From: Pseudomonadota bacterium
Lineage (GTDB): Bacteria > Pseudomonadota > Alphaproteobacteria > Rhodobacterales > Rhodobacteraceae
Length of the DNA stretch: 64,000 nt
Assembly: GCA_963205235.1 (NCBI GenBank)
Contig: CAUJIP010000116.1
Span: 1-64,000 of the forward strand
Reading direction: 5' to 3'
Shown here: positions 16,786-37,443 of the stretch, in pieces
How positions within the stretch are numbered: position 1 is the first letter of the stretch
How the letters are laid out: every line of letters starts with the position of its first letter
Notes under the pieces: model-generated
The model's database searches: none
What the model saw: only the letters and a program-made list of their open reading frames with translations
What the model was told of the DNA's origin: nothing
Made by a program: the position numbers and the translations under genes

Positions 16786-16801
16786 TTGCATACGTATGCT
16801 A
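16786..16801. promoter_or_regulatory. LacI-type operator 1
   Basis: TTGCATACGTATGCTA, a 16-bp palindrome with one half-site mismatch and the central CG typical of LacI-family operators. It lies 81 bp upstream of the first SnoaL-like gene and belongs to a set of four sites (see 18132, 26613, 26737). Confidence 0.75.
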
Positions 16802-16882
16802 AAGGCGTCACTTTCCGCCCAATCAAGTAGGATTGGTCTGTCCGGACGTGAGTCGTCGGCTGGACACGGCAGGGAGATGACG

Positions 16883-18043
16883 ATGACCGACAAGCCAGCC
16901 AACCAGAAGGGCAGCGAGCTTGCCCCCGCCCCGTCAGGAAAAGTGCTTCAGGTCGAACGGCACGACTTCCCCGACCTGGCGCCCCAGAACGCCAAGCGCA
17001 CCCAACCGATGCGCGGGTTCGATTCGATCTACACCGACATCGTCGACTACATCGTCCGCTGCACCCACCTGATCTGGGACGAACGCGACATCGGCCTGAT
17101 CTACAGCCACTACACCCACAACTGCGTTCTTTATGGCACCACCGGCACGCTTTACACGCGGGAAGAAGTCGTCCGCGACACTATCCAGCGGCTTGTCAGC
17201 TTTCCCGAACGCCGCGGCATGGCGACCCATGTGATCTGGAAAGGGAACGAGGATGACGGCTTCTACACCTCGCACCTTGTCACCGGAACCGGGCGGCACA
17301 GCCAGAACGGCCACCTTGGCCCGGCCACCGGGCGCATGTTCACGTCGCGCACTGTCGCGGACTGCATGATCTATGAAAACAAGAACTACCGCGAATGGGT
17401 CGTCGCCGACACCACCGCGATCCTGCAGCAATTGGGCGTCGATGTGCAGGGCTATGCCGAACGCATCGCCAAATCCGCCTTCGACAAGGGCATGGTTTCG
17501 CTGGATATCGGTGAAAATCGCCACATGATCGGCCAGTACCCGCCCGAGGCAGAGGCGGACCTTTCGCTTGCCTCGACCGACCTTGAACGCCACACGCTGC
17601 GCTGGCTGCACGATGTCTTCAACCGCAAGATGCTGGGCCAGATCGCCAAAGTCTGCGCGCCGACCGCGCAATACCACGGCCCCCTGATGGCCGAACTTTA
17701 CGGCCACGCCGCGATCATCCACCAGACTCTGGGCCTGATTGGCAGCATCCCCGACGCGGCCTTCACCGTGCACCACATCTGCTCCACTCCGTGTGAGGAA
17801 GGCGGCGAAAAGGTCGCCGTCCGCTGGATCATGGAAGGCCACCACATCGGCTATGGCATCCTGAACCACCTTGGCAGCCCGACTGGGAAACGGGTGCAGA
17901 TCATGGGCATCACCCATTTCCACTACAAGAACGGCAAGATCGTCGACGAATGGCGCGTCTATGACGAGGCGTCAGCGCTGGTCCAGGTCAAGCTGGCGCA
18001 GATGGCCGACGTCAAGGCCGCTGGCCTGATCGCCAGCCCCTGA
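16883..18043 (+). CDS. Double SnoaL-like (NTF2-fold) protein
   Basis: 386-aa protein made of two SnoaL/NTF2-like domains, roughly residues 40-200 and 225-370. Each has a WDERDIGLIYSHY-like or WLHDVFNRKMLGQI-like helix followed by the cone-shaped sheet. The fold includes isomerases, dehydratases and epoxide hydrolases, so an enzyme acting on a small hydrophobic or cyclic substrate is plausible, but the reaction is unknown. I chose ATG 16883 because AGGGA lies seven bases upstream; ATG 16877 would overlap it. Its promoter carries LacI-type operator 1. A second double-SnoaL gene lies at 28844. Confidence 0.7.
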   Translation: MTDKPANQKGSELAPAPSGKVLQVERHDFPDLAPQNAKRTQPMRGFDSIYTDIVDYIVRCTHLIWDERDIGLIYSHYTHNCVLYGTTGTLYTREEVVRDTIQRLVSFPERRGMATHVIWKGNEDDGFYTSHLVTGTGRHSQNGHLGPATGRMFTSRTVADCMIYENKNYREWVVADTTAILQQLGVDVQGYAERIAKSAFDKGMVSLDIGENRHMIGQYPPEAEADLSLASTDLERHTLRWLHDVFNRKMLGQIAKVCAPTAQYHGPLMAELYGHAAIIHQTLGLIGSIPDAAFTVHHICSTPCEEGGEKVAVRWIMEGHHIGYGILNHLGSPTGKRVQIMGITHFHYKNGKIVDEWRVYDEASALVQVKLAQMADVKAAGLIASP

Positions 18044-18066
18044 TCTACCACAGACAATCCCGACCC

Positions 18067-18094
18067 ACGGCCCGCGCCAAACGCGGGCCGTTTT
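18067..18094 (+). terminator. Rho-independent terminator
   Basis: A 10-bp stem ACGGCCCGCG/CGCGGGCCGT with loop CCAAA is followed by TTTCATTT. It separates the first SnoaL gene from the binding-protein gene, so the latter needs its own promoter, where LacI-type operator 2 lies. Confidence 0.88.
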
Positions 18095-18131
18095 CATTTC
18101 TGCCCTGCATCTCGGCCCCCTCACATAGTGT

Positions 18132-18147
18132 TTGCATTCGTATGCAA
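18132..18147. promoter_or_regulatory. LacI-type operator 2
   Basis: TTGCATTCGTATGCAA, one mismatch from the perfect palindrome. It lies between the terminator at 18067-18094 and the binding-protein gene, the expected promoter region of the ABC importer operon. Confidence 0.78.
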
Positions 18148-18249
18148 GAAGTGCTTAACCTTTGAAAGCGCGCCAGAGAGCATGAGTCTCTTGCCGCTCC
18201 AACAGGCCAACCGGCAAGCCTGCGCTTGCCCGCAGAAGGGATAACGACC

Positions 18250-19497
18250 ATGAAGCTTTCCAGAACCTTCACGGCGGGCGCTGTCAGCCTTGCCGCCTTG
18301 CTGGCCGGGGGTGTGGCCTTTGCCGAATGCGGCATCCAGGGGGCTGGCAACGTCGCCATCCTGTCGAACGACTTCGAAGCGCTGCGCATCGTCAATGGTG
18401 TGGCCATGTCCTGCGCGACCGCCGACGTGACTGTCTCGGCCAACGCCACCACCGAACACAAGAACATCCAGGGTCCCGCCCTGACCGCGAACCCGGCGGA
18501 ATATACCGTGGCGATGGTCGCCAATAACTCGATCGTGCCCTTGCTGAACGACGACCTGATCCGCCCGCTGGATGACCTTGTCGCCAAATACGGCGCCTCG
18601 CTGCAACCGAACCAGCTGATCACCATCGACGGCAAGGTCATGGCCATCGCTTTCATGGGCAACGGCCAGCATCTGTTCTACCGCAAGGACATTCTGGAAA
18701 AGGCCGGTGTCGCCGTTCCCACCAGCTATGAGGAAATGCTTGCCGCCGCCCAGGCGATCAAGGACGCCGGTCTGATGGAATACCCGCTGGCCGCCGCCGA
18801 CAAGCCCGGCTGGGACCTCGCCGCCGAATTCGTGAACATGTACCTTGGCACCGGCGACGAATTCTTTGCCCCCGGCAGCGCCGAACTGGCCATCGACAAT
18901 GACAATGGCCGCAAGGTTCTTGAAACCATGCGCGCCATGACCACCTTCATGAATCCCGACTACCTGACCTATGACGCGAACGAGATCAGCAAGGTCTGGG
19001 ATGCAGGCAATGTGGCGATGATGAACCAGTGGGGCTCGCTTGCCGGGGCCGCCATTGATCCTGCGACCGCCAATCCCGACGTTGCCGCGAACACCGGCTT
19101 TGCCCCGGCCCCGACCATCGGCGGCGGCACGATCCCGGCGGCAGCGCTGTGGTGGGATGGCTTTACCATCGCCAAGAACATCTCGGATGCCGATGCCGAA
19201 GTGTCGTTCCAGGCGATGGTCAAGGGCATCAGCCCGGAAACCGTGGCCGCGAACCCCGCCGCAGCCACCTGGCTGGTTGCAGGCTATGAACCCGGCCCGG
19301 CTGCAGTCGGTGTGATCGGCAATGCCAACGGCGGCGCGCGCGCCTATCCGATGCAGCCCTACATGGGCTTGCTGCACACCGCCCTTTCGGCTGAGCTGGC
19401 CGACTTCATCGCTGGCAAGGAAGACGCCGATCAGGCCCTTGCCGATGTGAAAGCCGCCTATGACACCGCCGCGAAAGAGGCAGGCTTCCTGAACTGA
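18250..19497 (+). CDS. ABC importer substrate-binding protein (family 1, CUT1 type)
   Basis: 415-aa periplasmic binding protein. A signal peptide covers residues 1-26 (MKLSRTF onward, ending VAFA), followed by a family-1 extracellular binding fold as in sugar or polyol CUT1 systems. No lipobox is evident. The substrate is unknown; the neighbouring catabolic genes suggest a small polyol- or amide-containing compound. ATG 18250 begins the signal peptide and follows an AAGGG site. It is first gene of the importer operon and likely repressed by the LacI protein at 22560. Confidence 0.85.
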   Translation: MKLSRTFTAGAVSLAALLAGGVAFAECGIQGAGNVAILSNDFEALRIVNGVAMSCATADVTVSANATTEHKNIQGPALTANPAEYTVAMVANNSIVPLLNDDLIRPLDDLVAKYGASLQPNQLITIDGKVMAIAFMGNGQHLFYRKDILEKAGVAVPTSYEEMLAAAQAIKDAGLMEYPLAAADKPGWDLAAEFVNMYLGTGDEFFAPGSAELAIDNDNGRKVLETMRAMTTFMNPDYLTYDANEISKVWDAGNVAMMNQWGSLAGAAIDPATANPDVAANTGFAPAPTIGGGTIPAAALWWDGFTIAKNISDADAEVSFQAMVKGISPETVAANPAAATWLVAGYEPGPAAVGVIGNANGGARAYPMQPYMGLLHTALSAELADFIAGKEDADQALADVKAAYDTAAKEAGFLN

Positions 19498-19515
19498 GGG
19501 TGCCCCCAGCGCCTT

Positions 19516-19555
19516 GCCCGGTCGCGCCTTGATGTGCGGCCGGGCTTCTTCTTCC
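19516..19555 (+). terminator. Intercistronic hairpin after the binding-protein gene
   Basis: A 10-bp stem GCCCGGTCGC/GCGGCCGGGC (19516-19525 with 19536-19545, one G-T pair) is followed by the pyrimidine-rich TTCTTCTTCC. Such hairpins after binding-protein genes act as partial terminators or 3' stabilisers and give more binding protein than permease. Confidence 0.65.
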
Positions 19556-19665
19556 GCCGGGATACGGTTTTACCGACATCTCCGCTTGCGGATCGCCGCG
19601 ATTGCCCCGCACCTTTGGGCCAAAGCTCCCTTCCCAATCCCAGCCCATGGCCAGAACACGAGGCG

Positions 19666-20580
19666 GTGCTGATCACCGTCCAGAACTGCGACCCCTTCGG
19701 ATGCACGACGCAGACCAAGGTCGACACCGAGGCGATGGCAAAACTGAACGAAGCCCAGCCGCTTGGCCAGTTCGTCGGTCTCGCCAACTACCTGAACCGC
19801 AACCACCTTGCGGTGGAGGAGATCGGCGCGATCCTTGCCGACAACAAGGGCTTCAGCGACGTGGTCTCGCGCATCTTCAACCTGCCATTCTACCGCGCAC
19901 TCAGCTTCACCTTGGTCTACTGCTTTCTGGTCACACCGCTGGCCATGGCCCTGGGCTTTGCCATCGCGCTTGCCGTCAACACCTTGCCGCGGCTTCTGAA
20001 GGGACCGGCGATCTTCATCTCGATCCTGCCGATGATCATCACGCCCCTTGTCGGGTCGCTGCTGCTGGCCTGGATGTTCAACCCGGCGGGCATCCTTGGC
20101 GCAACGCTGCAAAGCCTGACCGGCGATCCCGGCCTGTCGCTGCTTGCCTCGCCCGCTCTCGCCTGGACGGTGCTGATCTTCTACGGGGTATGGACCAACG
20201 GCCCCTTTTCCTTCGTCGTCTTCTACGCCGGCCTGCAGACCGTTCCGCATGACACCGTCGAAAGCGCCCGGATCGACGGCGCCTCAAGGTGGGAGGTCAT
20301 CCGCCACGTCATCATCCCGCACCTTGCCCCCCTCGCAACCTTCGTCGCCCTTGTGCAGCTGATGGACAACTTCCGCGTCTTTGAACCCATCGTCGGCTTT
20401 TCCGCCGAGGCAAACGCCACCTCGCTTTCATGGCTCGTCTTCAACGACCTTGTGGGTCAGGACGCGCAGCTTTTCGGCTCTGCCGCATCAACCTCGGTCA
20501 TCACCATCGTCGGTGTGCTGATCCTCTTGGCCCCCGTCCTCCGCCGCACCTGGCGTGAGTTCAACCAGAAAGCGGTGTGA
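19666..20580 (+). CDS. CUT1-type ABC importer permease, N-terminus uncertain
   Basis: MalF-like permease with five clear membrane segments and the EAA loop (ESARIDGASRWEVIRHVIIPHL) that contacts the ATPase. The usual first transmembrane helix before the VGLANY segment is not encoded in any frame: the in-frame sequence begins VLITVQNCDPFGC and the bases upstream to 19546 encode nothing hydrophobic. The open frame extends back to GTG 19534, but that codon sits inside the intercistronic hairpin. Strong coding bias begins near 19660; GTG 19666 and ATG 19735 are possible starts, both with weak ribosome sites. The gene is either N-terminally deleted or unusually short. Confidence 0.65.
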   Translation: MLITVQNCDPFGCTTQTKVDTEAMAKLNEAQPLGQFVGLANYLNRNHLAVEEIGAILADNKGFSDVVSRIFNLPFYRALSFTLVYCFLVTPLAMALGFAIALAVNTLPRLLKGPAIFISILPMIITPLVGSLLLAWMFNPAGILGATLQSLTGDPGLSLLASPALAWTVLIFYGVWTNGPFSFVVFYAGLQTVPHDTVESARIDGASRWEVIRHVIIPHLAPLATFVALVQLMDNFRVFEPIVGFSAEANATSLSWLVFNDLVGQDAQLFGSAASTSVITIVGVLILLAPVLRRTWREFNQKAV

Positions 20581-20582
20581 AG

Positions 20583-21461
20583 ATGTCTGTCGCCACCCGC
20601 CGCCCCGCCGCCCTGAACGCGCTGATCCTTGGTTTTCTGGCCATCTGGATCATCGCCGCCGCCTTCCCCTTCGCCTGGACCGTCTGGGGCAGCTTCAAGG
20701 TCGAGGCCGACTTCTTCTCGCGCCAATCCTGGTGGAGCGCGATCGAAGGCACCCGCACCCAGGCGCAGACCGGGTCGGCCTTCACGCTGGCGGGCTATGC
20801 AGGTGCCTGGGTGAAAAACGAATTCTGGAAGGCCGCGATCAACACCCTGATCGTCACCGTCTCAGTCACCCTGATCTCGCTGACCATCGGGACGCTTGGT
20901 GGCTATGCACTCGCCCGGTCGGGAAGCCGCTACGCCTTCTGGATACTGATCGCCGCCCTGATCTTCCGCGCCATGCCGCATATCACCCTCGTCTCAGGCT
21001 ACATGCTGCCGTTCTTCCAACTGAACATCTGGGGCGTCCTGCCCACCACGATCATCGTCCTTGTCGCCATCAACCAGCCCTTCACGCTCTGGATGCTGCA
21101 CAGCTTCTTCCTGTCGATTCCCAAGGACCTGGACGAAAGCGCGATGGTCGACGGCTGCACCCGGTTTCAGGCCTTCCGCATGGTGATCATCCCGGTGATG
21201 TGGCCCGGCGTCATCACCACCGGCCTGTTCAGCTTCCTCCTTGGCTACAACGACTTTGCCGTCACCTCGATGCTCCTCAGCCAGGAAAACCAGACCATGG
21301 TGCCAAAGATCGCCAGCTTCCTCGGGTCGATCCAGAATGAAGGCAACGTGATGTATGCCGTCGCCGCCGTCGTCTCGGCCACCGTGCCGCTTTTCATCCT
21401 CGTCCTCTTCTTCCAGCGCCAGATCGTTTCCGGTCTGACCGCTGGCGCCGTGAAAGGGTAA
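20583..21461 (+). CDS. CUT1-type ABC importer permease 2 (MalG-like)
   Basis: 292-aa inner-membrane permease with six predicted helices and the EAA loop DESAMVDGCTRFQAFRMVIIP. It starts at ATG 20583, just after the preceding gene's stop, or at an overlapping GTG at 20577. It partners the previous permease and the ATPase at 21465. Sequence features are intact, unlike its partner's N-terminus. Confidence 0.88.
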   Translation: MSVATRRPAALNALILGFLAIWIIAAAFPFAWTVWGSFKVEADFFSRQSWWSAIEGTRTQAQTGSAFTLAGYAGAWVKNEFWKAAINTLIVTVSVTLISLTIGTLGGYALARSGSRYAFWILIAALIFRAMPHITLVSGYMLPFFQLNIWGVLPTTIIVLVAINQPFTLWMLHSFFLSIPKDLDESAMVDGCTRFQAFRMVIIPVMWPGVITTGLFSFLLGYNDFAVTSMLLSQENQTMVPKIASFLGSIQNEGNVMYAVAAVVSATVPLFILVLFFQRQIVSGLTAGAVKG

Positions 21462-21464
21462 GCC

Positions 21465-22502
21465 ATGGCCCAGATCCGCCTTGTGAATGTCTCCAAACGC
21501 TGGGGCGCCTATGTCGGCGTCGACCGCCTCAACCTTGACATCGCCGATGCCGAATTCCTTGTCCTTCTCGGCCCCTCCGGCTGCGGCAAGACGACCACGA
21601 TGCGGATGATCGCGGGGCTTGAGGATGTGACCGAGGGCGAAATCTGGATCGGCGACCGCATGGTGAACCAACTGGAACCGAAAGACCGCGACATCTCGAT
21701 GGTCTTCCAGTCCTACGGCCTGTACCCCAACCTCACCGTCTACGAAAACATCCGCTTCCCCCTGCGCGTCCGCCGCATCCCGCAAAGCGAACACCACGAC
21801 CGCGTCATGCGCGCCGCCCAGATGGTCGAACTCGGCCCCTTCCTCGACCGCCGCCCCGCCGCCCTCTCCGGTGGCCAGCGCCAGCGCGTCGCCCTCGCCC
21901 GCGCCATTGTCCGGGAACCCAACGCCTTCCTGATGGACGAACCCCTCTCCAACCTCGACGCCAAGCTGCGGGTCAGCACCCGCGCGCAGATCAAGCACCT
22001 GCACCACACGCTTCGCCGCACCACGATCTACGTCACCCACGACCAAATCGAGGCGATGACCCTCGCCGACCGCGTCGTCGTCATGAACCACGGCGTCGTC
22101 CAGCAGCTTGGCACCCCGACCGAGATTTACGACCGCCCCGCCAACACCTTCGTCGCCTCTTTCATCGGCTCCCCCGCGATGAACCTTGTCGCGGGCGAGA
22201 TCCAGGACGGCACCTTCCGCGCCGAGGGCCTGACCGTTCCCGCAGCCGGACAAGGCCCCGTCACCCTCGGCTTCCGCGCTGAAGACGTCCGAGTGTCCCC
22301 CGAACCGGCCCAACTCACCGCCCCCGTCTACACGCTGGAGCTGCTCGGCGACGCAACTCTCGTCTCGGTCCGCATCGGCCCCGCCCTTGTCTCCATCCGC
22401 GCGCCCAAGGACTTTCGCATCGACATCGGCGCGCCCCTTCACGTCGCGATCCCGACCGAAAAGACCCACCTCTTCGACGCCAAGACCGGCACCCGGCTAT
22501 GA
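21465..22502 (+). CDS. CUT1-type ABC importer ATPase (MalK/UgpC-like)
   Basis: 345-aa ATPase. Walker A GPSGCGKTT lies near residue 36, with the signature LSGGQRQRVALARA, Walker B AFLMDEPLSNLD and the switch THDQIEAMTLADR; the C-terminal TOBE/MalK domain is present, so a regulatory contact is possible. It follows permease 2 by three bases and completes the importer operon ahead of the LacI gene. Confidence 0.92.
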   Translation: MAQIRLVNVSKRWGAYVGVDRLNLDIADAEFLVLLGPSGCGKTTTMRMIAGLEDVTEGEIWIGDRMVNQLEPKDRDISMVFQSYGLYPNLTVYENIRFPLRVRRIPQSEHHDRVMRAAQMVELGPFLDRRPAALSGGQRQRVALARAIVREPNAFLMDEPLSNLDAKLRVSTRAQIKHLHHTLRRTTIYVTHDQIEAMTLADRVVVMNHGVVQQLGTPTEIYDRPANTFVASFIGSPAMNLVAGEIQDGTFRAEGLTVPAAGQGPVTLGFRAEDVRVSPEPAQLTAPVYTLELLGDATLVSVRIGPALVSIRAPKDFRIDIGAPLHVAIPTEKTHLFDAKTGTRL

Positions 22503-22559
22503 CAGACTTGCCCGCCGCGCCGATCTCGCCCAAGACTGGCCCGGCAGGCAGGGAAAGAC

Positions 22560-23576
22560 ATGGCTGAAAAGGTAACCTCTCTCGAAGTCGCCGCTTTGGC
22601 GGGCGTCAGCCAATCCGCCGTCAGCCGGGTCTTCACCCCCGGCTCCTCGGTGTCGAAGAAGACTGCCGACAAGGTCCTTGCGGCCGCCGCCCAGCTTGGC
22701 TACCGCCCGAACGTCCTTGCCCGCGCGATGAAGTCGGGCAAGTCGCGCATCATCGGCCTCGTCGTCGCCTATCTTGAAAACTACTTCTACCCCGAGATGG
22801 TCGAACGCCTGTCGGTGGAACTGCAGAAAGTCGGCTACCACGTCCTGATCTTCCTTGCCCCGGTTTCGGTCGACAACGTCGACAAGGTGGTCAAGGAAAT
22901 CCTGGATTATCAGGTGGATGGCATCGTCCTCGCTTCGGTCTCGGTCTCGTCCGACCTTGCCGCGCGCTGCCAGTCGACCGGCATTCCCGTCGTCCTTTTC
23001 AACCGGGGCCATGCCGACAAGAACCTCTGCTCCGTCACCTCCGACAACTTTGCCGGCGGCAAGGCACTCGCCGATTACCTCTGCTCGCTTGGCCATCAGC
23101 GCATCGCCTATATCGCGGGCTTTTCCGGCGCCACCACCCAGATCGACCGCGAGGCCGGGTTCCGCCAAGGCCTCGCCGAAGCAGGTCAGGACCTCTTCGC
23201 CCGCGCCGAAGGCAACTTCGACTACCGCACCGCCCAATCCGCCGCGCGTGAGCTTTTTGCCACCACCCGCCGCCCCGATGCCGTCTTCGTCGCCAACGAC
23301 CACATGGCCTTTGCCGTGATGGACGTGCTGCGCTTCGAACTAGGCCTGCGCGTCCCCGAGGATGTCTCGGTCGTCGGTTTCGACGATGTCCCCCCCACCG
23401 CCTGGCCCGCCTACAATCTGACCACCTACCGCCAGCGCGTCGACGCAATGGTCGCCGAAACCGTCACCATGCTTCTCGCCCGCATCGATGGGGATGAGGC
23501 TGGCTCCCCCCATGTCGTCCTTGGCGGAGAGCTTGTCATCCGCGGCTCCACCCGCCGCTATGGGGACACGCGATGA
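22560..23576 (+). CDS. LacI-family transcriptional regulator
   Basis: 338-aa repressor: N-terminal HTH (VTSLEVAALAGVSQSAVSRV, residues 5-24), hinge helix PNVLARAMKSGKSRIIGL, and a periplasmic-binding-like effector domain (VVGFDDVPP near the end). The effector domain implies a sugar- or polyol-like inducer. It lies 57 bp after the importer ATPase and overlaps the small gene at 23573 by ATGA. Four matching palindromes (16786, 18132, 26613, 26737) are its likely targets. I see no such site directly before the gene itself. Confidence 0.9.
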   Translation: MAEKVTSLEVAALAGVSQSAVSRVFTPGSSVSKKTADKVLAAAAQLGYRPNVLARAMKSGKSRIIGLVVAYLENYFYPEMVERLSVELQKVGYHVLIFLAPVSVDNVDKVVKEILDYQVDGIVLASVSVSSDLAARCQSTGIPVVLFNRGHADKNLCSVTSDNFAGGKALADYLCSLGHQRIAYIAGFSGATTQIDREAGFRQGLAEAGQDLFARAEGNFDYRTAQSAARELFATTRRPDAVFVANDHMAFAVMDVLRFELGLRVPEDVSVVGFDDVPPTAWPAYNLTTYRQRVDAMVAETVTMLLARIDGDEAGSPHVVLGGELVIRGSTRRYGDTR

Positions 23577-23728
23577 AAACCGATTTCACCGAAGCTGAGT
23601 TCCGCGCCCGTCTTGCCGCCTTGGGCCTCACCCTTGACGACAAGGCCTTCGCCGCCGCCTGGGCCGGGGCGCAGCATTTGCGCGCTGAAGTCGCCCGCGT
23701 CCAGGCCTATCTCGACAAACCCGAATGA
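23573..23728 (+). CDS. Small AtzG-like protein preceding the amidase
   Basis: 51-aa protein coded between the LacI gene and the amidase, overlapping both by ATGA (23573-23576 and 23725-23728). It is mostly helical: an N-terminal TEAEFRARLAALGLTLD and a second helix AWAGAQHLRAEVARVQAYL. Small proteins of the AtzG/DUF4089 kind sit directly before amidases such as AtzE and are needed for a stable AtzE complex, resembling GatC with GatA. The position and helical pattern fit, but the sequence is short and the family call is inferred. Confidence 0.65.
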   Translation: MKTDFTEAEFRARLAALGLTLDDKAFAAAWAGAQHLRAEVARVQAYLDKPE

Positions 23729-25080
23729 CCGATCCCGCCGATCTTTCCCTGCCTGAGGGCGCCGCCATGCTGCGCAGCGGAACGCTTACCTCCCGCGCGC
23801 TGACACAGGCCGTGCTGGACCGCATCGCCGCCCGGAACCCGCGCCTCGACGCCTTCACCCGCATCGCCGCCGACGCGCTGGACCAAGCCGACCGCTCCGA
23901 CGCCCGGCTTGCCTCGGGTGAAGACCCCGGCCCCCTCTGCGGCCTCCCCATCGCGGTGAAGGACCTGATCGACGTGATGGGCCAGCCCGCCACCAGCGGC
24001 TCCCGCGTCCTTGCCGGTCGCATCGCCGACACCGACGCCCAAGCCATCGCCCGCCTCCGCGCCCAAGGGGCAGTCCTGATCGGCAAGGTGGCGACCTACG
24101 AATTCGCCATGGTCGGCCCCGACCTCACCCTTCCAAACCCGCCCGCCCGCAACCCGTGGAACACCGCCCACATCACCGGCGGCTCCTCCTCCGGCTCTGC
24201 CTCTGCCGTCGCCGGGGGCATCGTCCGCCTTGCCATCGGCACCGACACTGGCGGCTCGATCCGCTCGCCGTCCGCCTACTGCGGCTCAGTCGGCCTGAAG
24301 CCCAGCTACGACCGCACTTCCCGCGCCGGGGCCTTCCCGCTCTCCCCCAGCCTCGACCACATCGGCCCGCTCGCCGCGACGGTCGAAGAGGCCGCCCTTG
24401 CGCTGGACGCGATGACCGAAGGTGACTGGCGCCCCGCCTCCTCCCGGATCGGGCAACCCATCACCGGCCTGAGGATCGCCTACGCCCGCGACTGGTTCGC
24501 CGAAGACCCGCAGGCCAGCCCCGCCCTGATCAAGGCGATGGATGAGGCCGCCTCAACCCTCTCCCTCCTCGGCGCAGAGATCACCCTCGTAACCCTCCCC
24601 GACTATGCGCCCTATGAGGCCGCCGCCTCCATCATCCTCCACGCCGAAGCCCTCGAAGAACACCGCGCCCTGATCCATGACAACGCAGGCGACTACGGCC
24701 GTCCCACCCTGCAATGCCTCGCCTTCGGTGCCGCGCTCGACGCAGAAGACGTGGCACAGGCCCGCGCAGCCCAAACCCGCCTGACCGCCGAAATGCTGGC
24801 CGCGATGAACGGCCACGACCTGATCCTGACCGCCACGACCCTGACCCCCGCGCTCCCGTTCAGCGCCTTCGACGGCGAAAAGGCGGTCTGGACGCCCATG
24901 CGCACGATTGCCTTCAACCTGACCGGCCAACCCGCCCTGTCGCTTCCCGCCGGGTTCGAGAACGGCCTCCCCCTCGGCCTGCAACTGGTCGCAAGGCAGG
25001 GCGACGAGGACCTCCTCTGCGCTGCCGGTCACGCATTCGAGCGGGCCACGGACCATTCCGTCCAGCGCCCTCCGGTCTGA
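23725..25080 (+). CDS. Amidase-signature hydrolase (AtzE/GatA-like)
   Basis: 451-aa amidase-signature enzyme. The Ser-cis-Ser-Lys triad is visible: Lys79 in AVKDLI, Ser154 in GGSSSGS and Ser178 (nucleophile) in DTGGSIR, the last two 24 residues apart as expected. It hydrolyses an amide in an unknown substrate. Translation is coupled to the small AtzG-like gene by ATGA, which suggests an AtzE-AtzG-type complex rather than a free amidase. It is last gene of the plus-strand operon and is followed by a strong hairpin. Confidence 0.85.
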   Translation: MTDPADLSLPEGAAMLRSGTLTSRALTQAVLDRIAARNPRLDAFTRIAADALDQADRSDARLASGEDPGPLCGLPIAVKDLIDVMGQPATSGSRVLAGRIADTDAQAIARLRAQGAVLIGKVATYEFAMVGPDLTLPNPPARNPWNTAHITGGSSSGSASAVAGGIVRLAIGTDTGGSIRSPSAYCGSVGLKPSYDRTSRAGAFPLSPSLDHIGPLAATVEEAALALDAMTEGDWRPASSRIGQPITGLRIAYARDWFAEDPQASPALIKAMDEAASTLSLLGAEITLVTLPDYAPYEAAASIILHAEALEEHRALIHDNAGDYGRPTLQCLAFGAALDAEDVAQARAAQTRLTAEMLAAMNGHDLILTATTLTPALPFSAFDGEKAVWTPMRTIAFNLTGQPALSLPAGFENGLPLGLQLVARQGDEDLLCAAGHAFERATDHSVQRPPV

Positions 25081-25098
25081 AAGGCGCCTCCGGCGGGG

Positions 25099-25151: not shown

Positions 25152-25217
25152 ACCTTGCAACGCGGGAAAAAAGCGTACGGGCAAAAGTTAAGACCACACT
25201 AACACGCAATCCCAACT

Positions 25218-25260
25218 CATTGATTTTACAGGATCCGGAAAACTGTCCACGCAGGACAGT
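25218..25260. repeat. Convergent-end element, copy 2
   Basis: CATTGATTTTA (25218-25228) is followed after 13 bp by ACTGTCC-N5-GGACAGT (25242-25260), reaching the stop codon of the minus-strand HisD-like gene. On the minus strand the hairpin is followed by TTTTCC, so it can act as that gene's terminator. It has the same design as the element at 9120-9161. Confidence 0.55.
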
Positions 25261-26555: not shown

Positions 26556-26612
26556 CATGGCTCCTTTCGGCCCGGTGGCCGGGCGTGACTTATTGATCCT
26601 TTGTAGCTTGCT

Positions 26613-26628
26613 TTGCATACGTCTGCAA
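26613..26628. promoter_or_regulatory. LacI-type operator 3
   Basis: TTGCATACGTCTGCAA, one mismatch from the perfect palindrome. It lies 58 bp upstream of HisD-like gene A, in the divergent interval between the two HisD-like genes. Confidence 0.78.
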
Positions 26629-26736
26629 TTCTTGTTTCTTCCTCGCCGTCAGTCGAAAAGAAACCCTCTGCCAACCATGAACCGATCAACACCCCAGATG
26701 CCACTTGCCATTTCACCCGGTGATGATCTAAGCATA

Positions 26737-26752
26737 TTGCACACGTATTCAA
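26737..26752. promoter_or_regulatory. LacI-type operator 4
   Basis: TTGCACACGTATTCAA, two mismatches from the palindrome. It lies 11 bp upstream of HisD-like gene B and overlaps the region just before its ribosome site, so it could block transcription or initiation. Confidence 0.68.
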
Positions 26753-26763
26753 ATGAGGCTCCC

Positions 26764-28074
26764 ATGGCGATCACCTGGCTCAAGCGCGGCAAGCCCGAGG
26801 CGGAACGGGCTGCGGATGACGCCCAGGTCCGCGCCACGGTCGAAGGGGTTCTCGCCGACATTTCCGCCCGGGGCGATGCCGCCGTGCGCGACCTGTCGGT
26901 GAAGTTCGACCACTACGCCCCCCCCGCCTTCCGCCTGACTCCGTCCGAGATCGAGGCTGCGATCCAGAAGGTCTCCCCCCGCGACATCGAGGATATCCGG
27001 TTCGCCCAGGCTCAGATCCGCCACTTCGCGCTGGTCCAGCGCGCCAGCATGACGGATGTCGAGGTTGAAACTCTTCCGGGCGTCATCCTTGGCCACCGCA
27101 ACATCCCGGTCCAGTCGGTCGGCTGCTACGTCCCCGGCGGCAAGTTCCCGATGGTCGCCAGCGCCCACATGTCCGTCCTGACCGCATCGGTCGCGGGCGT
27201 GCCCCGGATCATCGCCAGCGCCCCGCCGGTCAATGGCGCCCCTCACCCCGCCATCGTCGCCGCAATGCACATGGGCGGCGCGCATGAAATCTACGTCCTC
27301 GGCGGAATGCAGGCTGTTGGTGCCATGGCGATCGGCACCGAAACGATCAAACCCGTCGACATGCTGGTCGGCCCCGGCAACGCCTATGTCGCCGAGGCCA
27401 AGCGTCAGCTTTACGGCCGCGTCGGCATCGACCTGTTCGCCGGACCGACCGAGACGATGGTCATCGCCGACGACACAGTGGATGCCGAGTTGTGCGCGAC
27501 CGACCTTCTGGGTCAGGCCGAACACGGCTACAACTCGCCCGCCGTTCTGGTGACCAACTCGCGCAAGCTGGCCGAAGCGACCCTGAAAGAAATCGACCGT
27601 CTGCTGACCATCCTGCCCACCGCCGCCACCGCTGCAGTCAGCTGGCGCGACTATGGCGAGGTGATCCTTTGCGACAACCATGACGAGATGCTGGCCGCCG
27701 CCAACGATATCGCCAGTGAACATGTGCAGGTCATGACCGACCGCGACGACTGGTATCTTCAGAACATGCATTCTTACGGTGCGCTGTTCCTTGGCCCGCG
27801 CACCAATGTTGCGAACGGCGACAAGGTGATCGGCACCAACCACACGCTGCCGACCAAGAAGGCCGGGCGCTATACCGGTGGCCTCTGGGTCGGCAAGTTT
27901 CTGAAAACCCACAGCTATCAGCGCATCACCACCGATGCCGCCGCTGCGCTGGTGGGAGAATACGGATCGCGGCTTTGCATGCTGGAAGGCTTTGTCGGCC
28001 ATGCCGAACAGTGCAATATCCGGGTCCGGCGCTATGGTGGACGAAATGTCCCCTACGGAGCCGCCGCGACATGA
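26764..28074 (+). CDS. Histidinol-dehydrogenase-family enzyme B
   Basis: 436-aa HisD-fold dehydrogenase, a paralogue of enzyme A. Landmarks are GQAEHGY, ASEHVQ and [14 protein letters not shown]. Its C-terminus ([10 protein letters not shown]) differs from that of A, so the two probably act on different steps or different substrates of one pathway. I use ATG 26764 because GAGG at 26755-26758 precedes it; the longer upstream frame crosses the divergent promoter. It begins the operon of dehydrogenase, SDR, SnoaL, bicupin, MetE-like, hydrolase and aldolase genes. Confidence 0.85.
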
Positions 28075-28835
28075 CCCTGCCCCGCACGCCCTCGTTCCGT
28101 CTGGATACCCGCCGCGCGCTGGTTGCCGGTGCCTCCTCCGGCATCGGGGCCGCTTGCGCCGTGGCGCTGGCCGAACAAGGGGCGCAGGTGACGCTTTGCG
28201 CGCGGCGGGAACCCGAACTGCGCGCGCTGGCTGCCGAAATGCGGGCCGAGGGGATGCAGGCCGACATCCTTGCGCTCGACATCACCGACATCGCGGCGGT
28301 CGAGGTGGCTTTGGCCGAACGTCCGGCCTTTGACATCCTCGTCAACTCAGCCGGTCTTGCCCGCCACTCGCCCGCGACCGAGACGACGCCGGAGGATTAC
28401 GACACCGTCACCAACCTGAACACCCGCGCGGCCTATTTCCTGACCCGGTCGGTGGCCCGGGGCCTGCTGGCGGCGGGAAAACCGGGGTCATTGATCAACA
28501 TCACCAGCCAGATGGCCCATGTCGGCGGGCCCGACCGGGCGGTCTATTCCGCCACCAAGCATGCGGTTGAAGGCATGACCAAGTCGATGGCGATCGAGTG
28601 GGGCAAGCACGGCATCCGCGTCAACACCATCGCGCCGACCTTCATCCGAACGGCACTGACCGCGCAGACCTTCGCCAACCCGGAACGCGCCGCCTGGATT
28701 GCGTCCAAGATCAAGCTGAACCGGGTGGGAGAGGTCACCGACATCATGGGCGCCGTCGCCTTCCTCGCCTCGGACGCGGCGGCGCTGATCACCGGAACCT
28801 CACTCATCGTCGATGGCGGCTGGACAGCGGACTAG
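28071..28835 (+). CDS. Short-chain dehydrogenase/reductase
   Basis: 254-aa classical SDR: cofactor motif GASSGIG at residues 20-26, NSAG near 92, and the catalytic Ser146, Tyr159 and Lys163 (YSATK). It interconverts an alcohol and a ketone using NAD(P). It overlaps HisD-like gene B by ATGA. The C-terminal [14 protein letters not shown] is typical of the family. The substrate is not identifiable from sequence alone. Confidence 0.87.
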
Positions 28836-28843
28836 GGGGACAG

Positions 28844-29818
28844 ATGGGACGCTACGCCAACCTGCCGGATTACATTCAGGGCGTGACCCGGGAAATCTGG
28901 GAAGGCCGCCAGATCGCCTTGCTGCAGCAAGCCTATGGCAAGGACATGATCGCCCGGTCGACGCTGGGCGTGATGACCGGAAATGTCGACGTGATCAACG
29001 ACACGCTCGCCAGTCTTGCCGCCTTCCCCGACCGCCAGATCTATGGCGACGACGTGATCTGGTCGGGGGAGGAGGCTTCGGGCTACCTTTCCTCGCACCG
29101 CTCGATGATCATCGGCACGCATACCGGCCACGGGGTCTTTGGCCCGCCGACTGGCAAGGTCGTGGCCGCCCGCTGCATCGCGGACTGCTATGTGCAGGAT
29201 GAGGTCATCACCGACGAATGGCTGTGCTACGACATGGGTGCGATGGTTCGGCAGCTGGGTCACAGCCCCGAGGCCTGGGCGCGGGCGTCGATTGTCCGCG
29301 AGGGCGGGCCAGAGAAGGCGCGGCGGCCCTTCACTACGGCTATTGATGTGCCCGGACCGTACACGGGGCGGGGCAACGATCATCCGCTGGGGCAGCGGCT
29401 GGCCGATATCCTGACCGGCATCATGGAGAAGGACGTGGCCGTCATCGGACGTGAGTATGACCGGGCGGTGAACGTCAGCCATGCGGGCGGCGTCACCGGC
29501 TGGGGCATCCCCTTCGCCGAAGCGCAGTGGATGCAGTTCCGCACCTGCTTTCCCGACGCGCAGTTCACCATCCACCACCAGATCGGCCGGGCCGATCCCG
29601 GCCAACCCGACCGCGCCGCAGTGCGCTGGTCGCTGGACGGCACTCACACCGGCTTTGGCCTGTTTGGTGCCCCGACCGGCGCACCCGTTCACATCATGGG
29701 CTTTACCCACGCCGAGTTCGGGCCTTGGGGACTAAGACGCGAATTCAGCCTGTGGGACGAGGTTTCCATCTGGAAGCAGATCCTTCTGGCCCACCCCGAC
29801 CACTCCTATCAAGGATAG
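28844..29818 (+). CDS. Second double SnoaL-like (NTF2-fold) protein
   Basis: 324-aa protein with two SnoaL-like domains, roughly residues 5-140 and 175-320. It has the same architecture as the protein at 16883 (shared idea of GTHTGHGVFGPPTGK and GTHTGFGLFGAPTG segments), but it sits inside the operon and lacks that protein's N-terminal extension. Residue conservation at the SnoaL cavity cannot be judged without an alignment. The start ATG 28844 follows GGGGA directly after the SDR stop. Confidence 0.7.
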   Translation: MGRYANLPDYIQGVTREIWEGRQIALLQQAYGKDMIARSTLGVMTGNVDVINDTLASLAAFPDRQIYGDDVIWSGEEASGYLSSHRSMIIGTHTGHGVFGPPTGKVVAARCIADCYVQDEVITDEWLCYDMGAMVRQLGHSPEAWARASIVREGGPEKARRPFTTAIDVPGPYTGRGNDHPLGQRLADILTGIMEKDVAVIGREYDRAVNVSHAGGVTGWGIPFAEAQWMQFRTCFPDAQFTIHHQIGRADPGQPDRAAVRWSLDGTHTGFGLFGAPTGAPVHIMGFTHAEFGPWGLRREFSLWDEVSIWKQILLAHPDHSYQG

Positions 29819-29822
29819 CAAG

Positions 29823-30791
29823 ATGACCCCTGCCGAAATGGAAACCCGCATCGTCCGCTATGGCGACTTGCGCCCCTGCAAGACCGCGTTCATCGACGCG
29901 CATACACCGGGATCGAACCGGAAGGAAAACTTCACCATCATCGGCGGTGGCGTATCTGAAAGCCCTGACCAGCATGTCCATATCGTCGACACCCCCGGCT
30001 TCAACATCGGGGCAGCAGGCCAGCCCCCCGGCTGCCGCAACTCGCTTCACACCCATCGCACGGCGGAAGTGTTCTTTGTCCTGAAAGGCCGCTGGCGGTT
30101 CTTCTGGGGCCGCTGGGGCACGGCGGGCGAGTTCATTGCCGAGGAAGGCGACATCTTCAACATCCCCACCGGCATCTTCCGGGCGTTCGAAAATGTCGGC
30201 ACCGACTATGGGATGATCATGGCGATCCTTGGCGGCGACGATGCCGGGGGCGGCGTGGTCTGGGCACCGCAGGTGATCACCGATGCCAAGGACTATGGCC
30301 TTGTGCTGGGCAAGAACGGCAAGCTTTACGATACGAAAAAAGGGCAACACCTGCCCGAAGGCGTCCCCCCTATGCCGCTCCTGACCGACGAGGAACTGAA
30401 GGCCTTCCCCGAACCCACCACAGCCGAAGTGATCCCGAACTGTGTCGCCCGCTACTGGGATCTGATGGCCCTGTCTGACCGCCAACCCGCCAAGGTGATC
30501 GGCGCGAACGGCAAGCTGCGCGACCGCCCCGGTTTCGAGGTTGAACTTCTGTCGCGCAACTCGATCCCCGACACGCCCTATACCCTGACCCGGCATGAGG
30601 TGCTGATGCCGATGCGCGGCTATTGGCGGCTGTCGTGGTCGGGCGGCACGACCGTATTGAACCCCGGCGACACTGCCGCGATCCCGCCGGGGCTGGAACA
30701 TTCGCTTGCGCCCTCGATGACCGGCGAATCCAGCCTTTACCGCGTTATTGCCACCGACGATCCGGCTGGCCTGACCGGACGGCTTTTGTGA
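29823..30791 (+). CDS. Bicupin protein
   Basis: 322-aa protein with two cupin barrels. The first carries a plausible metal site HTHRTAE (His76, His78, Glu82) followed by EVFFVLKGRWRF; the second, near residues 230-310, keeps HEVLMPMRGYWRLSW but lacks the HxH pair, so only the first barrel probably binds metal. The family includes dioxygenases, isomerases and lyases; which applies is unknown. It starts four bases after the SnoaL stop. Confidence 0.75.
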   Translation: MTPAEMETRIVRYGDLRPCKTAFIDAHTPGSNRKENFTIIGGGVSESPDQHVHIVDTPGFNIGAAGQPPGCRNSLHTHRTAEVFFVLKGRWRFFWGRWGTAGEFIAEEGDIFNIPTGIFRAFENVGTDYGMIMAILGGDDAGGGVVWAPQVITDAKDYGLVLGKNGKLYDTKKGQHLPEGVPPMPLLTDEELKAFPEPTTAEVIPNCVARYWDLMALSDRQPAKVIGANGKLRDRPGFEVELLSRNSIPDTPYTLTRHEVLMPMRGYWRLSWSGGTTVLNPGDTAAIPPGLEHSLAPSMTGESSLYRVIATDDPAGLTGRLL

Positions 30792-30799
30792 AGATCACG

Positions 30800-30843
30800 G
30801 CAAGACAAAAGCAAGACGAAAGCAAGACTGAAGCAAGACAGTT
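30800..30843 (+). repeat. Four tandem 11-bp repeats
   Basis: Four consecutive units of GCAAGAC plus four variable bases lie in the 67-bp gap between the bicupin and the MetE-like gene. They form neither a coding sequence nor a clear hairpin. A spacer or a site for a protein is possible. Confidence 0.55.
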
Positions 30844-30858
30844 CCAGACGAGGTATTC

Positions 30859-31980
30859 ATGACCCTTCTCGCCACACATGTCGGCTCGCTTCCCCGCCCG
30901 CAAGAGGTGGTGGATTTCCTGTTCACCCGCGAGAAGGGTGAGGCTTACGACCCCGCCGCCTTCGACGCCTGCATGGCGGCAGCGGTGCTGGAAAACGTCC
31001 GCCGCCAAAAGGAATCGGGCATCGACATCGTGTCTGATGGCGAGGCTTCGAAGATCAGCTACGCGACCTACGTCAAGGACCGCTACACCGGGTTTGGCGG
31101 TGACAGCCCACGGAATGCGCCCGCCGACCTCAAGTTGTTTCCCACTTTTCTGGACCGGCTGGCAAAGGAAGGCGGCACCCCGAAATACGCGCGTCCTCAA
31201 TGCGTTGGCCCGGTCGCATCCAAAGGCCAGGGCGAGTTGCAAAAGGACATCGCCAACCTGAAATCCGCGATGGCCGCGCATGGGGTGGAACGGGGCTTCA
31301 TGAACGCCGCCTCACCCGGCGTGATCAGCCTGTTCCTGCAGAACGCCCACTATGCGACGCGGGAAGACTACCTGCACGCCCTCGCCGATGCGATGCGCGA
31401 CGAATACCGCACGATCCTTGACGCGGGGTTGGACCTGCAGCTTGACTGCCCCGACCTTGCCCTGTCGCGGCACATGCTGTTCACCCATCTGACGGACACC
31501 GAATTTCTGGCCGTGGCGAACACCCATGTTCAGGCCCTGCACCACGCCTTGCAAGGCTTGGACCATGACCGCATCCGCCTGCATATCTGCTGGGGCAACT
31601 ATGAAGGCCCGCATGTCTGCGACATCGACATGGCCAAGGTCTTCCCCCTGCTGATGACGGTTCCGGCCCGCTATATCCTGTTCGAAACCGCGAACCCCCG
31701 GCACGGCCACGAATGGACCGTGTTCCGCGACCGCGCCAAGGACATTCCCGACGACAAGGTCCTGATCCCCGGCGCGGTGGACACGACGACGAACTTCGTC
31801 GAACATCCCGACCTTGTGGCGCAACGCCTTGAGCGGTTTACGAATATTCTCGGGACTGATCGCGTCATCGCCGGGTCGGACTGCGGCTTTGGCACCTTTG
31901 CAGGCTTCGGCGCGGTGGACCCAGAAATCGCATGGGCCAAGCTTGCGACGCTGAAGGAAGGGGCGCGCCGTGTGGGCTAG
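30859..31980 (+). CDS. MetE C-terminal-domain-like (cobalamin-independent methionine synthase II) protein
   Basis: 373-aa single TIM-barrel protein related to the catalytic half of MetE. Predicted zinc ligands are visible: His242 and Cys244 in LHICWG, and Cys342 in GSDCGFGT. The N-terminus VGSLPRP is diagnostic of the fold. Proteins of this type transfer or remove thiol-linked or methyl groups and are often found outside methionine synthesis; the folate-binding N-terminal half of MetE is absent. In this operon it probably handles a methyl or thiol group of the substrate, an inference from context. Confidence 0.75.
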   Translation: MTLLATHVGSLPRPQEVVDFLFTREKGEAYDPAAFDACMAAAVLENVRRQKESGIDIVSDGEASKISYATYVKDRYTGFGGDSPRNAPADLKLFPTFLDRLAKEGGTPKYARPQCVGPVASKGQGELQKDIANLKSAMAAHGVERGFMNAASPGVISLFLQNAHYATREDYLHALADAMRDEYRTILDAGLDLQLDCPDLALSRHMLFTHLTDTEFLAVANTHVQALHHALQGLDHDRIRLHICWGNYEGPHVCDIDMAKVFPLLMTVPARYILFETANPRHGHEWTVFRDRAKDIPDDKVLIPGAVDTTTNFVEHPDLVAQRLERFTNILGTDRVIAGSDCGFGTFAGFGAVDPEIAWAKLATLKEGARRVG

Positions 31981-32033
31981 GGACCAAAACTCTTCGAAGA
32001 GTTTTGAAAATTCCTTCGAAGGAATTTGGTCCC
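31980..32033 (+). promoter_or_regulatory. Branched palindromic RNA element before the hydrolase gene
   Basis: The outer stem GGGACCAAA/TTTGGTCCC (31980-31988 with 32025-32033) encloses two hairpins with UCGA tetraloops: an 8-bp stem at 31986-32005 and a 7-bp stem at 32009-32026. The 3' arm of the second hairpin contains AAGGAA, the likely ribosome site of the GTG start at 32035. The structure could hide that site. Only three A residues are shared by competing stems. Confidence 0.6.
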
Positions 32034-32034
32034 G

Positions 32035-32718
32035 GTGACGCCGATTGTCCTGATCCCCGGCATGATGTGCGACGCCCGGATGTGGGGCGGTATCGACGCC
32101 GATCTTGGCGTGGCGGTGATCCACCACCTACCGACCGAGGCCGACAGCATGGCTGCCCTCGCAGCCTTGTTTCTGAACACTGCCCCACCGACCTTTGCCC
32201 TTGCGGGCCTTTCCATGGGCGGCATCGTTGCGATGGAAGTCCTGCGCCAAGCCCCTGACCGCGTCACCCGGCTGGCCCTTCTGGACACCAACCCCCGCGC
32301 CGAAGCGCCCGAGGTTCAGGCCCGCCGCGCCCCCCAGATTGCCCGTGCCTTGGGCGGAGAGTTGGACAGCGTCCTGCGTGACGACATGAAGCCGAACTAC
32401 CTGGCCCCCGGCCCCGGCAAGCAGGTGATCCTTGATCTCTGCATGGACATGGCGCTGACCCTTGGCCCGCAAGTCTTTGCCCGTCAGTCCCGCGCCCTGC
32501 GCGACCGGCCTGACCAGCAGGCGACGCTGGCCGGTTACAAAGGCCCGGCGCTGGTGTTGATGGGCGAAGGTGATACGCTTTGCCCGCTGGACCGCCACCA
32601 GTTGATGCACAGCCTTATGCCGCAATCGCGGCTGCAGATCATCCCCGGCGCGGCGCATCTGCCGCCGCTGGAAGAACCCGCCGCCACCACCCGCGCCTTG
32701 CGCGACTGGCTTGCCTGA
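32035..32718 (+). CDS. Alpha/beta hydrolase
   Basis: 227-aa hydrolase. Key features are IVLIPGMMCDARMW at the N-terminus (oxyanion region), the nucleophile elbow GLSMGG, and PGAAHLPPLEEP near the end with the catalytic His. It hydrolyses an ester or C-C bond of unknown substrate. I choose GTG 32035 because the AAGGAA site at 32019-32024 lies ten bases upstream; TTG 32026 would be only two bases away. It is co-transcribed with the aldolase gene. Confidence 0.82.
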   Translation: MTPIVLIPGMMCDARMWGGIDADLGVAVIHHLPTEADSMAALAALFLNTAPPTFALAGLSMGGIVAMEVLRQAPDRVTRLALLDTNPRAEAPEVQARRAPQIARALGGELDSVLRDDMKPNYLAPGPGKQVILDLCMDMALTLGPQVFARQSRALRDRPDQQATLAGYKGPALVLMGEGDTLCPLDRHQLMHSLMPQSRLQIIPGAAHLPPLEEPAATTRALRDWLA

Positions 32719-32728
32719 AGGACCGCCC

Positions 32729-33514
32729 ATGCCGATCACCGATATCAAGGCCCATTTCGCCGCCGGGGGCACTGCCGTCAACGGCTGGTGCGCCATTCCG
32801 TCGCCCATCACCGCCGAGATCATGGGCCGCGCCGGGTTCGATCTGATGACCATCGACCTGCAACATGGGCTGATCGACTATCAGACGGCGCTGACCCTGC
32901 TGCAGGTTCTGCAAGGCCTTCCTGCCCCAGTCATGGTGCGCGTGCCCTGGAACGAACCGGGCGTCGTGATGAAATGCCTGGATGCAGGCTTTTCCGGGCT
33001 GATCTGCCCGATGATCAACACCGCCGAGGACGCCCGTCACCTAGTGCAATCCGCCCGCTATGCCCCGCTGGGAGGGCGGTCTTTCGGCCCGACGCGGGCG
33101 AACCTTGTGCATGGGGCGGGCTATGCCAAGGGCGCCAACAGCACAGTACCCGTCTTCGCAATGATCGAAACGCGCGAGGCGCTGGCCAACCTTGATGCCA
33201 TTCTGGCGGTCGAGGGGATCGACGGTGTCTATGTCGGCCCGTCCGACCTTGGCTTGTCGCTGGGCCATGAGCCGACCTTGGAGCCGACCGCACCCGAGGT
33301 TCTGGACGCCATCAGCACCATCGGCGCGCGGGCGCGGGCGGCAGGGCGCATCGCGGGGATCCATACCGGATCGCCCGCGATGGTGAGGGCAATGCTGGCC
33401 AAGGGCTTCCACTTCGCCTCGCTGCTGACGGACGCCCGCCTGTTCATCAGCGCCCTTTCGGTGCAACTGGCCGACGTTCGGGGAACCGGATCCAAGCTGA
33501 GCAGAGGCTACTAG
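32729..33514 (+). CDS. HpcH/HpaI-family class II aldolase
   Basis: 261-aa aldolase/citrate-lyase-family enzyme. Conserved residues of the metal-dependent aldolases are visible: FDLMTIDLQHG with the general base, MVRVPWNEP with the Arg, MIETREALAN with the metal-binding Glu, and VYVGPSDLGLSLG with the metal-binding Asp. It cleaves a 4-hydroxy-2-keto acid to pyruvate and an aldehyde. It would be the final carbon-cleavage step of the locus. ATG 32729 has AAGGA six bases upstream. Confidence 0.87.
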   Translation: MPITDIKAHFAAGGTAVNGWCAIPSPITAEIMGRAGFDLMTIDLQHGLIDYQTALTLLQVLQGLPAPVMVRVPWNEPGVVMKCLDAGFSGLICPMINTAEDARHLVQSARYAPLGGRSFGPTRANLVHGAGYAKGANSTVPVFAMIETREALANLDAILAVEGIDGVYVGPSDLGLSLGHEPTLEPTAPEVLDAISTIGARARAAGRIAGIHTGSPAMVRAMLAKGFHFASLLTDARLFISALSVQLADVRGTGSKLSRGY

Positions 33515-34653: not shown

Positions 34654-34680
34654 CGGCGTTCCTCTTGCTTGGTTTTCAGG

Positions 34681-35433: not shown

Positions 35434-35442
35434 GTCTTTCTC

Positions 35443-36198: not shown

Positions 36199-36207
36199 GG
36201 TCCGCAC

Positions 36208-37440: not shown

Positions 37441-37443
37441 GGC

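Follow-up and report, generated by a model that had tools for sequence, protein, structure and literature searches.

In a 64,000-nucleotide stretch of a Rhodobacteraceae genome (assembly GCA_963205235.1, contig CAUJIP010000116.1, positions 1 to 64,000; hereafter the window), a block of about 16 genes for the uptake and breakdown of a probably sugar-like compound is, judging from sequence comparison, very probably linked by one LacI regulon with predicted binding to four operators. A fuller reading, which we hold to be evenly poised, is that the LacI-family regulator encoded at 22560 controls four units through these operators, and that the units jointly import and degrade one family of sugar-like compounds, with a conserved core and an amide side module. 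The operators, the LacI link and the core and accessory gene sets come from comparison. What we infer is how the genes fall into transcription units, each reaction and its place in the sequence, the substrate, and that LacI represses instead of activating.

The near-palindrome TTGCATACGTATGCAA has four matches in the window when up to three mismatches are allowed, against a mean of 0.03 and a maximum of 1 in 100 dinucleotide shuffles of the same stretch. The rest of the genome (3,790,373 bases, 131 contigs) adds only two, each with three mismatches, and the reversed pattern matches once in the whole genome. The initial annotation had placed four palindromes at these positions, and the counts bear it out: the motif is nearly unique in the genome and not equally frequent at random. 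With gene starts that we chose, since the longest open reading frames (ORFs) of SnoaL1 and HisD1 would start within an operator, O1 (TTGCATACGTATGCTA, 16786 to 16801, one mismatch) lies 75 bp upstream of the SnoaL1 start at 16877, O2 (TTGCATTCGTATGCAA, 18132 to 18147, one mismatch) 102 bp upstream of the importer binding protein start at 18250, O3 (TTGCATACGTCTGCAA, 26613 to 26628, one mismatch) 54 bp upstream of the HisD1 start at 26558 on the minus strand, and O4 (TTGCACACGTATTCAA, 26737 to 26752, two mismatches) 11 bp upstream of the HisD2 start at 26764; no strand is assigned to the sites. O3 and O4 form a pair inside the intergenic region between the divergent HisD1 and HisD2 genes.

The operator is a palindrome with a central CG, stands ahead of LacI's own cluster and recurs in relatives. 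The regulator (22560 to 23576, plus strand) combines a LacI helix-turn-helix with a periplasmic-binding-type effector domain (PF00356 and PF13377, both above cut-off), and its recognition helix, VSQSAVSR, is found in 98 of 104 LacI hits of at least 45% identity, overlapping loci being counted twice. To collect relatives, the cupin of the locus was scanned against one genome per species, which gave at least 537; the best 80 were kept and joined by four plasmid records, making 84 loci. Counts over this set are skewed to close relatives, as it consists of the 80 best cupin matches and four chosen plasmids, and the gene counts, taken at set identity thresholds, are lower bounds, many loci being cut by contig or fetch ends. 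A LacI of 45% identity or more is encoded in 63 loci, of which 48 carry a site within three mismatches; the sites number 86 against 1.2 in Markov shuffles; two of the four loci with a weaker LacI also have an operator.

The family gives the same picture from two further directions. Some SnoaL1 relative at E ≤ 0.001 occurs in 92 of 198 family genomes, and close orthologues (64–85% identity) in 10 of the 198 besides the window's own; nine of these ten belong to clusters that are recognisably of this kind, and the tenth (L042) lies on a 4.4-kb contig that carries nothing but SnoaL1 and the binding protein. Nine of the ten genomes have an operator with at most three mismatches, and none was found in G163 (32 kb read). 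The exact degenerate pattern TTGCAWWCGWWTGCAA occurs at 55 sites, by our own count, in 43 of the 198 genomes, with none for the reversed control. Thirty loci with 34 such exact sites were read: 23 are versions of this cluster or of its transporter portion, two are next to a cupin, one is next to a SnoaL gene and four (L185, L191, L192 and L196) are next to unrelated genes that offer no further plausible regulon member. At L196:9972, the exact operator-type site is close to the start of an ORF resembling an alpha-glucosidase and followed by importer-like ORFs, labels that we assigned from the sequence ourselves; possibly it serves a different LacI regulator that recognises a similar sequence.

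Operators are also found with LacI proteins at 34–48% identity; these come from Novosphingobium, Klebsiella, Pantoea and members of other classes (L235, L238–L241), and include two Novosphingobium plasmids with sites and, in another class, four genomes with an operator and a LacI of 46–48% identity. Among the cupin relatives (80 kept plus plasmid hits) are those of marine roseobacters, rhizobia and sphingomonads; enterobacteria have versions that are more distant. Cluster, LacI and operators recur jointly in Rhodobacteraceae, rhizobia, sphingomonads and Enterobacterales, and many bacteria of soil, plants and the sea share both the genes and the operator. Nine loci with a divergent cupin and no HisD gene (L135, L138, L139, L141, L143, L144, L237, L242 and L243) have no operator. 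Furthermore, in 11 roseobacter loci the cupin is the sole cluster gene within the fetched flank; eight of these lone cupins have an operator 34–120 bp upstream, and clustering of the neighbours of all 11 gave no partner common to more than two loci. In genome G001, the cluster on C5 lacks a cupin in the 20 kb read and a lone cupin with an operator lies on C6, a split that matches the prediction of a trans-acting regulator; a second cupin on C10 has no operator in the fetched flank. The proposal of one LacI-linked catabolic locus is borne out by these comparisons, in which the gene block, its motif and the regulator recur together.

The gene content of the relatives separates a core from an accessory set. 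Across the 84 loci, LacI is found in 63, HisD2 in 62, the short-chain dehydrogenase/reductase (SDR) in 62, the hydrolase in 51, SnoaL2 in 50, the MetE-like protein in 47, the importer ATPase in 39, RraA in 37, HisD1 in 17, the amidase in 14 and HpcH in 11. Aldolase types mostly replace one another (RraA only in 36, HpcH only in 10, both in one). The conserved core consists of the importer, LacI, the SDR, one HisD-type dehydrogenase, the two-domain cupin, the alpha/beta hydrolase and an HpcH or RraA aldolase, with SnoaL1, the small amidase partner, the amidase and HisD1 as an accessory module. Thirteen loci have both the amidase and HisD1. Four others count as HisD1 only: three of them stop at or close to this gene, and a more distant amidase is present in the fourth (Novosphingobium). 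L047 (Sinorhizobium medicae) has the amidase without HisD1.

The initial annotation had made amide cleavage a core step, and the strongest form of that idea, in which the whole locus is one linear route for a sugar- or polyol-like amide with amide cleavage essential, appears unlikely. An amidase-signature enzyme is indeed present, its small partner gene stands beside it in eight of the 84 loci, and the window's SnoaL1, HisD1 and amidase units are each preceded by a copy of the shared operator. However, the amidase and HisD1 are far rarer than HisD2, SDR and LacI, and no amidase gene occurs in the stretches read of the Klebsiella, Paracoccus alcaliphilus and Octadecabacter versions. Klebsiella michiganensis K5-3 has LacI, hisD, SDR, a major facilitator superfamily (MFS) carrier, hydrolase, HpcH aldolase and cupin, with neither SnoaL nor amidase found in the 25 kb read; relative to it, Pantoea dispersa has an extra amidase, a second hisD and two SnoaL genes. 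Since the amidase and the second HisD are accessory, the core substrate need not be an amide, and the amido-polyol first suggested is one possible substrate class for the window strain, not for the system as a whole.

For the reading with a core and an amide side module, spacing and terminator-like hairpins suggest four likely transcription units: SnoaL1; binding protein, permeases, ATPase, LacI, small partner and amidase; HisD1; and HisD2 through to the aldolase. One hairpin lies 3′ of SnoaL1 (18067 to 18091, plus strand) and one between the binding protein and the permeases (19516 to 19545, plus strand); their number in the region (8 against 11.4 in shuffles) carries no meaning in itself, and a sigma-70 scan returned no promoter-like site in the region against 2.4 in shuffles. 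These would be the units controlled by a LacI-type repressor bound to the four 16-bp operator copies. Uptake of a neutral or acidic carbohydrate, read here as a sugar or sugar acid, would fall to a complete CUT1 ATP-binding cassette (ABC) importer, all on the plus strand: the binding protein (18250 to 19497), two permeases (19666 to 20580 and 20583 to 21461, both PF00528) and one ATPase of MalK/UgpC type (21465 to 22502; PF00005, PF17912 and PF08402). The carbohydrate-type importer of the initial annotation is confirmed as a CUT1 set; the binding protein gives weak sugar-binding-protein matches (best 5iai, E 7.5e-10) and no Pfam hit, and solved binding proteins are too distant to suggest a ligand.

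Inside the cell, the SDR (28071 to 28835, plus strand, PF13561) and HisD2 (26764 to 28074, plus strand) would oxidise a secondary alcohol and a CH2OH adjoining CHOH to a keto acid or lactone. An ester or lactone (or a C–C bond) may be opened by the PcaD-like alpha/beta hydrolase (32026 to 32718, plus strand, assigned by Pfam and NCBIfam), and an enediol intermediate isomerised or oxidatively cleaved by the bicupin (29823 to 30791, plus strand, assigned by Pfam). The HpcH/HpaI aldolase (32729 to 33514, plus strand; PF03328, class II pyruvate aldolase), which resembles SwHKA and has RraA in its place in many relatives, would split a 4-hydroxy-2-oxo acid into hydroxypyruvate or pyruvate and an aldehyde. 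The accessory module would let the strain also use an amide-bearing relative of the substrate; it comprises SnoaL1 (388 residues, 16877 to 18043, plus strand), in which PF07366 (E 9e-25) covers residues 240–370 in the C-terminal half, the 51-residue amidase partner (23573 to 23728, plus strand), the amidase (23725 to 25080, plus strand; PF01425, E 2.5e-95) and HisD1 (25260 to 26558, minus strand).

Both HisD1 and HisD2 pass TIGR00069 within family PF00815, and their best solved relatives are dihydroxypropanesulfonate (DHPS) dehydrogenases (8wwe and 8v35). This, together with an SDR of HpsO's family (PF13561) adjoining HisD2, could point to a sulfonate pathway of the dihydroxypropanesulfonate (hpsN) type, which we nevertheless regard as highly improbable. 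In the available text of PMC11382572, the HpsN motif is GRY[AS]H, with the sulfonate-binding His, and the substrate-loop motif of HisD is GSAPL. The HpsN motif is absent from both window proteins: HisD2 has GKFPM and HisD1 GRFPL, and the respective patterns GK[FY]P[ML] and GR[FY]P[LI] hold in 95 of 97 and 22 of 24 rows, the remainder being unreadable (these rows, like those of the LacI helix, include some same-genome loci twice, for example L027/L028 and L066). Moreover, the 16 cluster proteins include no HpsP-type Pfam hit and no sulfolyase, and an HpsN-type gene with motif GRYSH lies elsewhere in the genome, on C5. GSAPL is absent from HisD1 and HisD2, yet also from the solved HisD 4g07 (GTASY) and a HisD-like C80 gene (GLASY).

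The window proteins share with HpsN and HisD the catalytic Glu-His and the zinc ligands Gln, His and Asp (residue roles as given in the available part of PMC11382572), and differ from them in the five-residue substrate motif. HisD1 differs further from HpsN in having Ala at the inter-subunit zinc His position (LEGHRRA or LEGHQKA) in 22 of 24 rows, two being unreadable; the remaining readable residues are retained in HisD1 and its orthologues despite this Ala. In Paracoccus alcaliphilus, a second hisD (L048:33208-34521) carries the HpsN motif GRYAH and adjoins a taurine-type importer and a sulfate exporter gene.

The cupin–hydrolase–aldolase trio has a partly characterised counterpart in Sphingomonas (Rhizorhabdus) wittichii RW1, in the order SDR, hydrolase, HpcH, cupin. 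Its aldolase, Swit_5035, is identical over 250 residues to SwHKA (6r62), a crystallised enzyme that, in the accessible portions of its literature, converts hydroxypyruvate; a review, as far as its text was available, has 'HpcH1 S. wittichii', which we take as SwHKA, adding to D- or L-glyceraldehyde and D-erythrose. Those same portions state no physiological role for it. The SwHKA gene (L141:13228-13980) has cupin, hydrolase and SDR genes as neighbours, and its plasmid is typed as conjugative; this context hints where a natural role may be sought. The retro-aldol step put forward at the outset stands as far as the type of enzyme goes, and pyruvate may or may not be its product: the RW1 aldolase also uses hydroxypyruvate and RraA is commoner than HpcH.

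The same trio also adjoins oxo-tetronate genes. On four annotated plasmids it occurs with otnK and a class II aldolase gene, on three of them also with an isomerase gene, and L242 has all three otn genes; the kinase, decarboxylase and isomerase of V. pelagius, the sole set scored, pass NCBIfam equivalog cut-offs. L235, a HisD-type locus with operators, encodes a tripartite ATP-independent periplasmic (TRAP) permease 70% identical to the V. pelagius Otn-type permease, which hints that the HisD and Otn versions use a related substrate.

The bicupin was modelled with AlphaFold from a diverse alignment at a predicted local distance difference test (pLDDT) score of 88.3; an earlier model built from 25 close sequences (pLDDT 57.3) was left out of the fold search. 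The predicted structure has a two-cupin fold of quercetin dioxygenase or oxalate decarboxylase type. Residues H76, H78 and E82 are invariant in 19 rows and Arg120 stands at the fourth-ligand position, so that the three-His-one-Glu metal site of quercetin dioxygenases is not found.

Several observations weigh against the reading of one LacI-controlled carbohydrate pathway, and a first group concerns regulation. Fifteen of the 63 LacI loci have no site within three mismatches, three of the 11 lone cupins have no operator, and in L133 (the Alloyangia cluster) and L234 HisD and LacI are present and the operator absent. Conversely, the fetched stretch of 17 loci contains no LacI, yet 13 of them carry a site, which means that the regulator is not always adjacent; most of these (eight) are accounted for by the operator-bearing lone cupins. 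These 13 loci, along with the four unrelated neighbourhoods among the 30 read around exact sites, would also fit operators that belong to another regulator, with the local LacI acting elsewhere. Set against that is the co-occurrence of the LacI gene and the operators across classes with the recognition helix retained, and we consider this alternative very improbable.

A second group concerns chemistry. The MetE-like protein and the many SnoaL proteins, which reach four or five SnoaL-type ('ester cyclase' or NTF2) genes per cluster in L048, L131 and L134, have no place in the proposed scheme. The window HpcH and all 11 distinct orthologues above 55% identity have His at the position of SwHKA Phe210, an aromatic residue described, in the available text, as favouring hydroxypyruvate, so pyruvate may be the real product. 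The cupin fold ties among dioxygenases, a decarboxylase and seed globulins, so its reaction is not fixed, and the RW1 operon lies near aromatic-degradation genes. Degradation of an aromatic or phenolic compound, with the cupin as ring-cleaving dioxygenase alongside the PcaD-like hydrolase and the HpcH aldolase, is nonetheless doubtful, a shade more so than the essential amide route. The locus has a CUT1 importer and a LacI regulator, the trio adjoins oxo-tetronate genes, and the cupin model matches seed globulins and oxalate decarboxylase with scores close to those of the dioxygenases. In Novosphingobium, an antiporter and a carrier separate the SnoaL gene from glycoside hydrolase genes some 3 kb away, and an L-fuconolactonase-related protein, far below cut-off, is encoded beside one roseobacter version.

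Taking these points together with the evidence for a carbohydrate pathway under LacI control, we put forward, at a little under even confidence, a widespread and undescribed oxidative, non-phosphorylative carbohydrate pathway under one conserved LacI–operator pair. It would include two new HisD subfamilies (GKFPM and GRFPL) acting as alcohol-to-acid dehydrogenases, a cupin with a reduced metal site, an SwHKA-type aldolase yielding hydroxypyruvate or pyruvate, ends that can be swapped (HpcH for RraA; HisD/SDR for OtnI/K/C) and a side module for amide cleavage. No published description of the locus was found in the open-licence PubMed Central literature, a weak absence given that coverage, and to that extent the view that the locus follows no recognised pathway stands. 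Homarine and ascorbate pathways were considered and rejected. A cupin marker at no fewer than 537 places, counted in one genome per species, suggests that a common environmental compound is probably eaten via an unnamed route, and the compact Klebsiella version offers an easy way to identify the substrate. If the proposal is true, SwHKA, an aldolase of known crystal structure, gains a biological role, functions would be assigned to the two HisD subfamilies, and the 'histidinol dehydrogenase' and 'methionine synthase' labels on cluster proteins would be corrected.

The rest of the cluster consists of SnoaL2 (28844 to 29818, plus strand), a tandem SnoaL protein matching PF07366 in two stretches (E 2e-17), and the MetE-like protein (30859 to 31980, plus strand). 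The latter scores 81.2 bits against the methionine-synthase equivalog, whose cut-off is 406, and retains the zinc residues HxC, E and C in seven of seven aligned sequences. Adjoining the locus on the minus strand (33637-38412) is a hydroxyproline-type gene group with trans-3-hydroxyproline dehydratase-like, D-amino-acid dehydrogenase-like and DapA-like proteins, two SDRs and a GntR regulator at 38443; none reaches an equivalog cut-off, and one SDR passes a broad subfamily cut-off.

Compared with known systems, the locus resembles LacI-regulated CUT1 sugar operons in its importer layout, regulator family and central-CG palindrome, and differs in that no kinase or glycosidase is found by Pfam among the 16 cluster proteins. 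Like the AtzG–AtzE pair, it has a small protein encoded directly ahead of an amidase-signature enzyme; unlike that pair, the amidase scores 277.8 bits against the AtzE equivalog cut-off of 461 and the 51-residue partner matches no AtzG model, so that the AtzG name reflects position and size. With this exception, the initial gene list agrees with Pfam and NCBIfam. The likeness to SwHKA lies in the window HpcH, 43% identical, and in the RW1 gene's own setting, where hydrolase and cupin genes complete the trio and an SDR gene joins it; the differences are the His in place of Phe210 and, in the 29 kb of RW1 read, that no HisD or LacI of the window type was found. Finally, the genes for OtnI/OtnK/OtnC tetronate catabolism adjoin the same cupin–hydrolase–aldolase trio, whereas none of the window's 16 cluster proteins belongs to these families and HisD2 and the SDR stand in their place.

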